From the NCBI RefSeq assembly GCF_002994005.1, contig NZ_POSN01000002.1:127855-191854 (forward strand): a stretch of DNA of 64,000 nt. The letters run 5' to 3'. Shown in pieces: positions 1,739 through 36,620 of this stretch (the stretch's first letter is position 1; every line of letters begins with the position of its first letter). The translations under genes and the position numbers were made by a program. This stretch comes from Apilactobacillus quenuiae. Lineage in GTDB: Bacteria; Bacillota; Bacilli; Lactobacillales; Lactobacillaceae. The notes beneath the pieces are model-generated. The model ran no database searches, was not told where the DNA came from, and saw nothing but the letters and a program-made list of their open reading frames with translations.

Positions 1739-1769
1739 TAATATTAATAAATGAAAGGAGAAAGAGTCC

Positions 1770-1829
1770 ATGAGAAATATTTTAAAACATTTATTATTAG
1801 TTTCTACTTGGCAAAGCTGGTGTTATTAA
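1770..1829 (+). CDS. Tryptophan-rich leader peptide (19 aa)
   Basis: A short ORF, ATG at 1770, with AAAGGAG at 1754-1760 (9-nt spacing). It reads MRNILKHLLLVSTWQSWCY and stops at 1827-1829. Two Trp codons (1809-1811 and 1818-1820) lie within four codons, close to the stop, in a 19-residue peptide; this is unusual for a rare residue and typical of attenuator leaders. The stop codon lies inside the left arm of a 12-bp hairpin (1825-1836 with 1849-1860). The reading is that ribosome position over the Trp and stop codons controls folding of the following RNA and read-through of the terminator at 1971-2008. Peptide and hairpins are seen directly; the control function is inferred. Confidence 0.8.
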   Translation: MRNILKHLLLVSTWQSWCY

Positions 1830-2008
1830 ATCGCATTAATATATACAGATGCGATTTAATTAGATGTCTATATAATTAAGCGCATCTGTACCGGCTTCTT
1901 TCTCGCGAATAATAAAAGCCTGTGCGGAATAAATTCAAAACACCACAGGTATTGATATAACTTTTAATTAAGCGGATAACCTGTAATGTTTGGGTTATCC
2001 GCTTTTTT
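1825..2008 (+). promoter_or_regulatory. Transcription attenuator of the Trp-family ABC operon
   Basis: A chain of mutually exclusive pairings can be read. A (1825-1836) pairs with B (1849-1860) over 12 bp. B (1844-1853 and 1856-1862) can instead pair with C (1881-1890 and 1873-1879). C (1893-1897, 1881-1884) can pair with D (1916-1920, 1923-1926). D (1919-1924) can pair with E (1944-1949). E (1945-1950) can pair with F (1979-1984). F (1971-1981) pairs with G (1993-2003) over 11 bp, followed by T6, which is the terminator. No T-box sequence is present. The alternation lets ribosome position on the leader peptide decide whether F is sequestered by E (read-through) or forms the terminator. C:D is the weakest pairing. 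Confidence 0.7.
1971..2008 (+). terminator. Attenuator terminator before the Trp ABC genes
   Basis: AGCGGATAACC (1971-1981) pairs perfectly with GGTTATCCGCT (1993-2003), with an 11-nt loop, and six T follow. It lies between the leader peptide and the first structural gene, so it must be regulated rather than an ordinary gene end. Confidence 0.85.
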
Positions 2009-2052
2009 ATTGGAATAATTTATTAATAACATCGAAAAAGGAGTTAGAACAA

Positions 2053-3048
2053 ATGAAACGCTTATATTCAGTAATTATATTATTATGTCTAATATTGGCA
2101 TTTGGTTACTACAAAGAACAACAACCAGCTAAAATCAGTCGTGATCATACTCCAGAAGTTGGAATTTTACAATTGACTGAACACCCTGCATTAGATGCAA
2201 TTCATCACGGAATTATTCAAGGATTAAAAGAATCTGGCTTTCAGCCTGGGAAAAATATCAAAATTGATTTTCAAAATGCTGAAAATGATCAAAGTAATCT
2301 AAAAACTATGAGTACTAAATTTGCCAATGAAAATGTAGATTTATCAATTGGAATTGCTACTCCTTCAGCACAAGTATTAGCAAACACTGTTAAAAATAGC
2401 CCCCTAGTTTTAGGTGCTATCACTGATCCTAAATCTGCTGGACTAGTTGATTCTAATCAAAAACCTGATAGAAACACTACTGGGGTTTCTGATTTACCTC
2501 CTATGAAGCAGCAACTAGATTTAATCAAGCAAATCATGCCTCATATGAAAACTCTTGGGGTTATTTATACTTCTAGTGATGATTCAGCAACTAGTCAGTA
2601 TCAAAGATTTACCCAAATGTGTAAACAAGCAGGTATTAAAGTTAAGGGATATTCTATTGCAAACACTAATGATTTAAATCAGGTAGCTACACAAATGGTT
2701 CAAAACGTTGATGCTGTATATGTTCCAAACGATAATACTGTCGCTTCAGCCATTCAAACTTTAGTCGCAGTAGCAAATAAACGTAATGTTCCAATCTTCC
2801 CTACTGCATCCAATGTTGTAAAAAACGGTGGTTTAGCAACATATGGATTAAATCAATTTAAACTAGGTGTTGAAACTGGAAAAGTAACAGCACAAATTTT
2901 AAAAGGAAAAAATGCCTCTGATATGCCAATTAAAACTTTAAATCATGGTGATTTAGCTATTAATTTAAATCAAGCTAAAAAATTAGGTATTCACATTCCA
3001 AAATCATTAATTCAAAAAGCTGAAAAACAAGGAGTGATCTACAAATGA
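2053..3048 (+). CDS. trpX: ABC transporter substrate-binding protein, TrpX-like
   Basis: A 331-residue extracytoplasmic solute-binding protein of the ABC_sub_bind (DUF534) family that lactic acid bacteria use in the tryptophan importer TrpXYP. The N-terminus has a hydrophobic segment (residues 5-18) but no acceptable lipobox, so it is probably held by an uncleaved helix. A family-typical core follows (VGILQLTEHPALD, IGIATPSAQ, GAITDPKSAG). The longest ORF begins at 1990 inside the terminator; I use ATG 2053 because AAAGGAG lies at 2037-2043. Its stop overlaps the next gene's ATG. Tryptophan specificity rests on family resemblance plus the Trp codons in the leader. Confidence 0.8.
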   Translation: MKRLYSVIILLCLILAFGYYKEQQPAKISRDHTPEVGILQLTEHPALDAIHHGIIQGLKESGFQPGKNIKIDFQNAENDQSNLKTMSTKFANENVDLSIGIATPSAQVLANTVKNSPLVLGAITDPKSAGLVDSNQKPDRNTTGVSDLPPMKQQLDLIKQIMPHMKTLGVIYTSSDDSATSQYQRFTQMCKQAGIKVKGYSIANTNDLNQVATQMVQNVDAVYVPNDNTVASAIQTLVAVANKRNVPIFPTASNVVKNGGLATYGLNQFKLGVETGKVTAQILKGKNASDMPIKTLNHGDLAINLNQAKKLGIHIPKSLIQKAEKQGVIYK

Positions 3049-12017: not shown

Positions 12018-12042
12018 ACTTATAAAATAAATATTATTAATG

Positions 12043-12117
12043 TTTGGGGTGCCTTTTAGGCTGAGATAAACCCATTGTACCTGATTCAGGATAATCCCTG
12101 CGAAGGAAAACAATACC
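12043..12117 (+). ncRNA. TPP (thiamine pyrophosphate) riboswitch, THI element
   Basis: The conserved THI-box core is unmistakable: GGGGTGCC, GGCTGAGATAAACCC, ACCTGATTCAGGATAAT and CCTGCGAAGGAAA in order. It precedes a terminator and the ykoEDC thiamine/HMP transporter genes, so thiamine pyrophosphate should switch the operon off by termination. Confidence 0.95.
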
Positions 12118-12150
12118 TTTTACCTTATATCATTGTGCATTTAACAATAA

Positions 12151-17360: not shown

Positions 17361-17432
17361 TTATAGAATATGATAAGGTTGATTTTTTAAATATTTTAAT
17401 ATACTATTTATCTTAATAATATATATTTTATT

Positions 17433-17499
17433 GCCTATATAATTACTAAAATATGGTTAGTAAGTTTCTACCTGAAACCTTAAATTTCAGACTATAAGC
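17433..17499 (+). ncRNA. Purine riboswitch, guanine-type
   Basis: The aptamer core reads ATATGG, AAGTTTCTACC, a P3 hairpin (CTGAAA/TTTCAG) and GACTATAAG, matching the xpt-class purine riboswitch. P1 is formed by 17433-17439 with 17493-17499. The base corresponding to position 74 is C (17492), which specifies guanine or hypoxanthine rather than adenine. The 3' P1 strand (17494-17499) can alternatively pair with GCTTAT (17520-17525), freeing or blocking the downstream terminator. Confidence 0.93.
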
Positions 17500-17509
17500 G
17501 AAAAGATTT

Positions 17510-17542
17510 AAATCCTTTTGCTTATGCATGAGGATTTTTTTG
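17510..17542 (+). terminator. Expression-platform terminator of the purine riboswitch
   Basis: AAATCC (17510-17515) pairs with GGATTT (17532-17537), followed by T-run. It competes with the antiterminator 17494-17505 : 17515-17525. Ligand-stabilised P1 should favour termination, so purine shuts off the permease. Confidence 0.7.
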
Positions 17543-36429: not shown

Positions 36430-36615
36430 CAATTGTCGAAAGCGCTCCACAAGAAGTATATTTCTTGTGACAGTCCATGATCTATTGAACCATGTCCCAG
36501 CAGACAAATACCTACAAGTATTTATTGCTTCGGCAACCTCGCCTTTCAATAAACTGTAAAAATCATTGTAGTGACTGAGTTTATCTAATATTTTCGGCTG
36601 CGACCTCTTCGATTA
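36430..36615 (-). ncRNA. Lysine riboswitch (L box)
   Basis: Reading the minus strand, the L-box landmarks occur in order: GAAGAGGTCGCAGCC, GGCGAGGTTGCCGAAGCAAT, GTCTGCTGGGACATGG, GGACTGTCACAAGAAA and TTCTTGTGGAGCGC. TCGAAG and CTTTCGA close P1. A terminator and the whole DAP-lysine operon follow, so lysine should cause premature termination. Confidence 0.95.
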
Positions 36616-36620
36616 ATTAC

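Follow-up and report, generated by a model that had tools for sequence, protein, structure and literature searches.

A probable ribosome-mediated tryptophan attenuator upstream of trpX in Apilactobacillus quenuiae and its relation to the trpB motif RNA (RF04312)

Introduction

How does a lactobacillus match the expression of a tryptophan importer to its tryptophan supply? The question is raised by a locus in a 64,000-nucleotide stretch of Apilactobacillus quenuiae DNA (hereafter, the window), in which a short open reading frame (ORF) containing Trp codons and a series of potential RNA hairpins precede an importer operon. An earlier note on this DNA interpreted the region as a leader-peptide attenuator with seven pairing segments (A to G), and took it for a notable alternative to T-box control, which it considered frequent among Lactobacillus Trp importers.

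Leader-peptide attenuation is well known from the trp operon of Escherichia coli. Its leader carries a short ORF with two Trp codons whose stop codon lies in the first arm of the RNA, alternative antiterminator and terminator structures, and an OFF state in the absence of translation. A different solution has been established experimentally for the trpXYZ operon of Streptococcus suis, which is controlled by a T-box (PMC9382623). This system serves the same importer family as that in the window and likewise responds to low tRNA-Trp charging with antitermination, hence the ON state, but there the tRNA is bound directly by the RNA; the term 'leader peptide' is absent from the main text of that paper (PMC9382623).

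A third possibility is offered by RF04312, the trpB motif, published in 2024 by Narunsky et al. as an orphan riboswitch candidate (PMC11109978). According to the main text of that paper, over 900 representatives of the motif occur among Firmicutes and Fusobacteria, and its usual neighbour is an uncharacterised amino-acid ABC transporter, with trpB also found. The authors speculated that it is a riboswitch, placing it among the strong candidates, and also allowed for a classic attenuator; 'leader peptide' has no occurrence in the main text (PMC11109978).

Results

Architecture of the leader and its operon

The features of the leader and its operon are all located on the forward strand. The gene that follows the leader, trpX (2053-3048), encodes a tryptophan ABC transporter substrate-binding protein (NF041285, 451.6 bits against a cut-off of 390; PF04392). 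It is followed by the genes of an importer permease (BPD_transp_2, PF02653; 3045-3941) and an importer ATPase (PF00005; 3934-4704), which bears out the earlier description of a TrpXYP-like importer. An amino-acid permease gene (25-1650) with its own terminator-like hairpin (1673-1698) lies directly upstream of the attenuator. Elsewhere in the window, TPP, purine and lysine riboswitches were found above the Rfam gathering score (12035-12125, 17415-17514 and 36431-36617).

A putative sigma-70-type promoter was identified at 1710-1738 (-35 TTGACT, spacer of 17, -10 TAAAAT; 10 of 12 consensus positions), and promoter-like hexamers were recognisable by eye in other leaders of the genus. A consensus scan of both strands of 1640-2060 returned two terminators and five promoter-like sites in total, against 0.2 and 2.5 in shuffled sequences. 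Close to the promoter, the ribosome-binding site GGAG (1757-1760), read from the sequence and matched by a purine-rich site in other genus rows, precedes an ORF of 19 codons, MRNILKHLLLVSTWQSWCY (1770-1829), with the peptide end STWQSWCY. Codons 14 (1809-1811, -18 from the stop) and 17 (1818-1820, -9 from the stop) are the Trp control codons. The stop codon (1827-1829) lies within segment A (1825-1837), the first hairpin arm, as the earlier note had described.

The alternative pairings are arranged as a chain in which most segments have two partners. Segment B (1844-1860) pairs with A through 1848-1860 and with C through 1844-1853. Segment C (1881-1891), which the alignment identifies as the right side of P1 in RF04312, pairs with B through 1881-1890 and with D through 1885-1891, the latter pairing being the antiterminator. 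Segments A and D (1918-1928) were taken from the stem listing and the genus alignment. Segment D also pairs with E (1944-1950); D:E takes the position of the terminator of canonical RF04312 members and here lacks a U tract. Segment F (1970-1983; stem listing, alignment and consensus scan) is the 5' arm of the terminator, and segment G with the U tract covers 1991-2008 (alignment count of the OFF set and consensus scan). The scan gave this U-tailed terminator, claimed earlier, 14 pairs over 1970-2004, with the U tract at 2003-2008.

A stem listing of the window leader, limited to stems of at least seven pairs, returned A:B, B:C, C:D, D:E and F:G, with pairing energies of -13.8, -14.5, -7.0, -9.7 and -21.1 kcal/mol. 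The remaining link of the proposed chain, E:F, stood only as a 6-bp core, ACAGGT:ACCTGT (1945-1950 with 1979-1984), read from the sequence and the alignment. Two pairings that the earlier note had not listed involve the strand after P1, GTACCGGCTTCTTTCTC (1888-1904), as a possible partner of the leader codons (1814-1823 with 1888-1897) and of the ribosome site (1758-1766 with 1896-1904).

Conservation within Apilactobacillus

Sequence conservation among close relatives can indicate which parts of an RNA are kept by function. TrpX and the same leader were found in all 16 Apilactobacillus genomes searched, each with a leader ORF of the same type in which both Trp codons are invariant. The in-frame peptide ends (n=16) were WQSWC in 13, WQSWS in one and WQGWQ in two leaders. 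Conservation of the ORF is thereby a computed observation.

The two alternative sets of helices were assessed in the genus alignment. In the ON set (A:B, C:D and E:F), 93.9% of the alignment cells held standard pairs, against 23.9-43.1% when the partners were slid, and in the OFF set (B:C, D:E and F:G) the value was 96.8%, against 29.3-41.2%. In the covariation check that the earlier note had proposed, the OFF set had two-sided changes in four pairs (reached in 4 of 500 shuffles) and a covariation score matched by 1 of 500. For the ON set the covariation score was matched by just 3 of 500 shuffles, and its two-sided changes (two pairs) were not above shuffles, 330 of 500 being as high.

The helix named as the weakest link in the earlier note, C:D, was paired in all 16 sequences with hardly any variation. 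The poorest-paired helix of the ON set was instead E:F, in which 85.4% of cells held standard pairs. The loop-side pair of E:F is missing from 11 of the 16 sequences and its outer pair from three; its inner four pairs (1946-1949 with 1980-1983) form in all 16 and a fifth in 13.

Relation to RF04312 and breadth of the family

In a permissive Rfam scan the window matched RF04312 with 30.0 bits over 1842-1961, below the gathering cut-off of 59. The alignment and the TrpX gene downstream showed that the window shares P1, the strand after P1, the next hairpin and the gene context with this class. The second hairpin of RF04312 is an intrinsic terminator; in the window the corresponding D:E (1918-1950) lacks a U tract, and F:G is the terminator. 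When 30 loci from other genera of the family were first screened by script, 27 proved to carry an SD-led Trp ORF, and the RF04312 members above the cut-off have the same type of leader peptide as the window.

The class was sampled in 295 genomes of the order at E<=1e-4, which gave 145 matches in 133 genomes, all of which were examined. A leader was scored when the stop codon of an SD-led Trp ORF fell in the interval from 60 nt upstream to 10 nt downstream of the point where the match begins. Such a short Trp-codon ORF was found upstream of 140 of the 145 matches. The same detector fired in 4.4% of dinucleotide shuffles (20 each), at 88 of 1134 random places and on 3 of 145 opposite strands, and a chance ORF was ruled out by these three backgrounds. 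The five matches without a Trp leader comprise one with Trp codons and no standard start (L212), one leaderless match that adjoins a tRNA-like stretch and looks like a false match (L224), and three with Tyr/Phe leaders. Across the phylum, RF04312 was matched at E<=1e-4 in 2 of 398 genomes, one of these in the order.

A second sample was based on the protein, through a TrpX alignment search, and consisted of the best 80 of at least 555 confirmed TrpX loci. A Trp leader was present in 76 of these best 80, with 75 found by script and one added by eye, that of Oenococcus oeni (L139), which has WWW and no clear ribosome site. The four leaderless loci were L093, L094, L098 and L118, and the sequence upstream of L093, L094 and L118 looks coding by eye. 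RF04312 passed its own cut-off in only 9 of the best 80, so the curated model covers only part of the family. Because the two samples partly overlap and the loci are related, the 145-match and 80-locus counts are descriptive and not independent.

The peptide end also varies within the family. Eight leaders (L132-L134, L137, L138, L140, L147 and L150) end in WWRR or WWRS in place of WQSR; their hosts are Leuconostoc, Weissella and one unclassified Lactobacillaceae. At L019, another ORF lies about 550 nt on (after 1607) where the close relative L018 has trpX, which may reflect an inserted element.

The T-box question

The window contained no T-box (RF00230) at the gathering cut-off, and none was found up to E=5 within 1650-2060. 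On the strand of trpX, none of the best 80 of at least 555 TrpX loci had a T-box at the Rfam gathering cut-off, which at 93 bits is high, so that weak T-boxes could escape; a T-box on the opposite strand occurred in 2 of the 80. With no T-box set against 76 Trp leaders in these best 80 loci, the premise that Lactobacillus Trp importers are T-box controlled does not hold for this sample. Judged from the sequences, leader-peptide control appears to be the rule in this group of TrpX loci and not the exception.

Folding of the core with ribosomes at defined positions

The fate of an attenuator is determined by the RNA that is free to pair while transcription proceeds. Folding was performed on 139 of the 140 Trp leaders, one being left out as no terminator was given for it. 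The folded stretch of nascent RNA began at the front edge of the ribosome (A site +14 nt) and ended immediately ahead of the 3' arm of the terminator, and capture was defined as the share of the terminator 5' arm bound by upstream RNA.

Mean capture (n=139) was 0.79 with the ribosome at the first Trp codon, 0.75 at the last Trp codon, 0.39 at the stop codon and 0.42 without a ribosome. Between the first Trp codon and the stop, capture was higher at the Trp codon in 130 of the 139 leaders and lower in three; with the front edge at +11 nt the values were 0.74 and 0.43 (120 up, 5 down). A sweep of ribosome positions up to the stop codon in every second leader (70 of 139) gave peaks at -18 and -12 (0.72) and a minimum at the stop (0.39), and past the stop, where there is no translating ribosome, capture climbed again as B was covered. 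When the stretch before P1 was shuffled, capture dropped from 0.74 to 0.48 and was lower in 65 of the 70 leaders. The A:B pairing was better than all 20 shuffles in 102 of 139 leaders and C:D in 97 of 139, with 6.6 expected. The terminator prevailed in all states when full-length RNA was folded at equilibrium (mean 0.93), so the choice has to be a kinetic one, made during transcription. The folds thus place an exclusive antiterminator and terminator under the control of ribosome position, clearly for the core and weakly for the last hairpin of Apilactobacillus.

In the genus, mean capture of segment D was 0.09 without a ribosome, 0.87 at the first Trp codon, 0.63 at the second and 0.47 at the stop; in the window itself the values were 0.10, 0.82, 0.71 and 0.49. 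The ribosome-constrained folds called for in the earlier note accordingly agree with its stall/stop model for the core (A:B and C:D versus B:C), and in the window they show only a slight effect on the E:F/F:G step. The positions of the window Trp codons, at -18 and -9, and the re-coded Tyr/Phe and His leaders described below are also consistent with the core model. The pairing of the leader codons and of the ribosome site with the strand after P1 was rejected as a general feature, as it beat all 20 shuffles in 20 and 11 of 139 leaders with 6.6 expected; it is kept as a lineage feature, with weak support outside the genus.

Control codons follow the regulated genes

If the leader ORF is the sensor, its codons should correspond to the genes that follow. 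A gene of the TrpX family followed 135 of the 145 RF04312 matches, including two with Tyr/Phe leaders; trpB followed five and another gene the other five. Leaders with Tyr/Phe codons were found at three of the 145 matches (L254, L233 and L262). The L254 leader, NNYYFSYFR*, precedes an operon with aroE, DAHP synthase, prephenate dehydrogenase (tyrA) and prephenate dehydratase (pheA), to which aroB, aroC, aroA and aroK were added by eye, and the same genome additionally has a Trp leader before trpX (L206). The other two, FYFSYFR (L233) and FNFSYFR (L262), stand before TrpX paralogs that score 319 and 336 bits, below the cut-off of 390. Computation thereby establishes a match between control codons and regulated pathway.

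A His-coded version was found at L023, a match above the RF04312 cut-off (62.2 bits), where HHHLHR* precedes a basic amino-acid antiporter (TIGR00905, 449 bits; cut-off 409). It is the single case in 28 genomes of its genus. A search for more His leaders in this genus gave ten matches, of which one was the known leader (L307), eight had no SD-led ORF by script and one, L309, had a short SD-led ORF, MITQTSHHLHR, which was taken as chance because the sequence that follows is unlike the platform by eye. After the His-led antiporter, L267 encodes a 262-residue protein (1844-2629) that has no Pfam match at E<=0.001.

These variants were also folded with ribosomes at defined positions. Capture in L254 was 0.99 at the Tyr codons -18 and -9 and 0.39 at the stop. 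The first three His codons of L023 gave 0.98-0.99, its last His codon 0.67 and its stop 0.48, and in L262 capture was 0.92-1.00 at -24 to -18, but 0.51 at the Phe codon -15; the stop values of these three span 0.38-0.48. L233 displayed a small change (0.58 versus 0.44). Without a ribosome, capture was 0.99 in L254 and 0.95 in L077, a Phe-rich leader described below, contrary to an OFF default.

A degenerate DNA pattern for the Tyr/Phe leader end was found in 207 of 395 genomes, and the reversed pattern matches some as well. Thirty pattern loci comprised 19 SD-led in-frame leaders, one leader in frame without an SD (L297) and ten other contexts. In 17 of the resulting 20 Tyr/Phe leaders, no more than 2 of 50 shuffles equalled or surpassed A:B. 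Inspection by eye of the initial residues encoded by the downstream genes recognised, among others, prephenate dehydratase, shikimate dehydrogenase and TrpX-like proteins. Eighteen of the 20 leaders were scored at a later terminator and depended little on ribosome state (7 up, 4 down); the remaining two gave no terminator.

Two further leaders were observed with other gene contexts. L022 (1501-1603) carries WQSWQS* before an Opp4A-like oligopeptide-binding protein, whose truncated sequence scored 318 bits, below the model's 650; peptide uptake may here be under Trp control. Outside the order, the RF04312 match L077 (1501-1621) carries the Phe-rich IQIFFNNHFR* before a sodium:neurotransmitter symporter. 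It is possibly a Phe version of the leader, and its folding was without the expected state dependence.

The additional relay and later terminators

The leaders of the wider family were compared for the number and place of their terminators. Of the 72 named TrpX leaders with a terminator, 28 had two, 34 a late one only and 10 an early one only. Because late and double terminators are this common in relatives, a seven-segment chain unique to Apilactobacillus was ruled out, and the long relay is shared beyond this genome. In leaders with two terminators, the first responded to ribosome state in 25 of 28 (1 opposite) and the last in 13 of 28 (4 opposite). Single late terminators responded in 11 of 34 (3 opposite) and single early ones in 8 of 10 (1 opposite). 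We infer from these sequences that D:E may be the ancestral terminator, which in Apilactobacillus is without a U tract, and that control would have been handed to F:G.

How far the signal reaches F:G is the least certain part of the reading. Mean capture of segment F in the genus was 0.26 without a ribosome, 0.64 at the first Trp codon, 0.45 at the second and 0.44 at the stop, and in the window it was 0.01, 0.61, 0.58 and 0.55; by these window values, the last step distinguishes RNA with and without translation better than it distinguishes starvation from sufficiency. It is quite conceivable, if short of an even chance, that the core works as proposed but that F:G of Apilactobacillus stands outside the relay, with E:F too slow to form. 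This would fit the poor pairing of E:F relative to the other ON helices, an F capture that barely changes with ribosome state in 7 of the 16 genus members and changes slightly in the window, and the minority response of last terminators elsewhere. It is opposed by the rise of F capture at the first Trp codon, by more than 0.05 above the stop value, in 9 of the 16 members, and by the four E:F pairs that form throughout the genus and the fifth that forms in 13 members. Support is good for the core from A to E and weaker for the E:F/F:G extension, also in the window.

Discussion

The window leader is very probably a ribosome-mediated transcription attenuator that senses charged tRNA-Trp and belongs to a widespread Lactobacillales family including RF04312. 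In this model the leader ORF would be translated, and a ribosome short of Trp-tRNA would stall when codon 14 or 17, both Trp, enters its A site. This would leave segment A free to capture B, so that C could pair with D, the antiterminator, and transcription would continue into trpX. Under an ample Trp supply, a ribosome at the stop codon would cover A, so that B:C (P1), D:E and the terminator could form and transcription would presumably end in vivo. In canonical members D:E itself would be the terminator, and in Apilactobacillus the signal is perhaps relayed through E:F to the second hairpin, F:G. An untranslated Apilactobacillus leader is predicted to adopt the OFF fold with its ribosome site paired.

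Three other explanations of the locus have to be weighed against ribosome-mediated attenuation. Under a metabolite riboswitch, P1 and the strand after it would bind tryptophan or a related ligand and the short ORF would be incidental. The strong conservation of P1 and the CCGGCU strand would suit such a reading, as would the rank given to the trpB motif by its authors (PMC11109978); yet the leader ORF is near-universal in the samples examined, its codons switch to Tyr/Phe or His along with the regulated genes while the RNA frame is unchanged, and segment A and the stop codon are placed where a terminating ribosome would cover them, which leaves a riboswitch very improbable. The conserved peptide end could also point to a TnaC-like arrest peptide, in which a WQSR or WQNWRR chain stalls the ribosome on free Trp and not in response to tRNA charging. 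The first Trp is followed by CAA (Gln) in 115 of 139 leaders and then, in most, by Ser or Asn, and only one Trp codon is present in 46 of the 139. Against this, the codons are as constrained as the residues (CAA 115, CAG 0; AGC 60, AGT 2), so that constraint on the RNA may explain the conserved residues; Trp is swapped for Tyr/Phe or His in relatives; and, by reasoning, a ribosome that stalls when Trp is abundant would, with these pairings, switch an importer in the wrong direction. We regard an arrest peptide as highly unlikely. A T-box or a protein-bound, TRAP-like leader has the experimentally known T-box of S. suis trpXYZ in its favour (PMC9382623), but the window gave no T-box at the gathering cut-off, nor any up to E=5 within 1650-2060, and the 80 loci had none at that cut-off on the strand of trpX; T-box control of the window leader was rejected, and the probability left to this explanation as a whole is close to nil.

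Ribosome-mediated attenuation in the window can be compared with systems already described. With the E. coli trp leader it appears, by analogy, to share the ORF with two Trp codons, the stop codon in the first arm, the choice between antiterminator and terminator and the OFF state of untranslated RNA. The family differs from that leader in its arms (A:B, B:C, C:D and D:E), in that about a third of the leaders examined have a single Trp codon, in having relatives with Tyr/Phe or His codons, and in the E:F/F:G step added in the genus. The published trpB motif resembles the window in P1, a CCGGCU-type strand, a P1 right side that serves as antiterminator and the hairpin that follows, and its published description, in the available text, includes neither a leader ORF nor segment A; the window copy departs from RF04312 in its score under the gathering cut-off and in a D:E without a U tract.

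His leader peptides have been described in Bacillota (Naville and Gautheret, 2010, PMC2965389; also PMC9413887), in bacilli, the B. cereus group, Eubacteriales and Erysipelotrichales according to the available text of these papers. They are like the window leader in being Gram-positive leader-peptide attenuation where T-boxes would be expected, and unlike it in their amino acid, genes and lineages; Trp or Tyr/Phe leaders do not appear in the available text of either (PMC2965389, PMC9413887). The literature accessible to us yielded no Trp or Tyr/Phe leader-peptide attenuator for Lactobacillales, and an earlier account in print is possible.

Taken as a class, RF04312 is likely to be a leader-peptide attenuator platform of Lactobacillales and not a riboswitch: a counterpart, in the uptake and synthesis of aromatic amino acids, of the T-box, with exchangeable codons and with a second relay in Apilactobacillus and other lactobacilli. 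The codons exchanged on this platform would be Trp, Tyr/Phe, His and perhaps Phe. The novel elements are an explanation for an orphan class, control codons that can be exchanged and a relay that has been extended; we claim no new physical principle.

The analysis offers a testable function for a published orphan RNA class, and it corrects the expectation that the Trp importers of lactobacilli and their relatives are run by T-boxes. On the attenuator frame, amino-acid specificity seems to evolve through codon swaps. The leader parts are short and portable, and since fermentation and gut lactobacilli rely on amino-acid import, the circuit may be of practical use.
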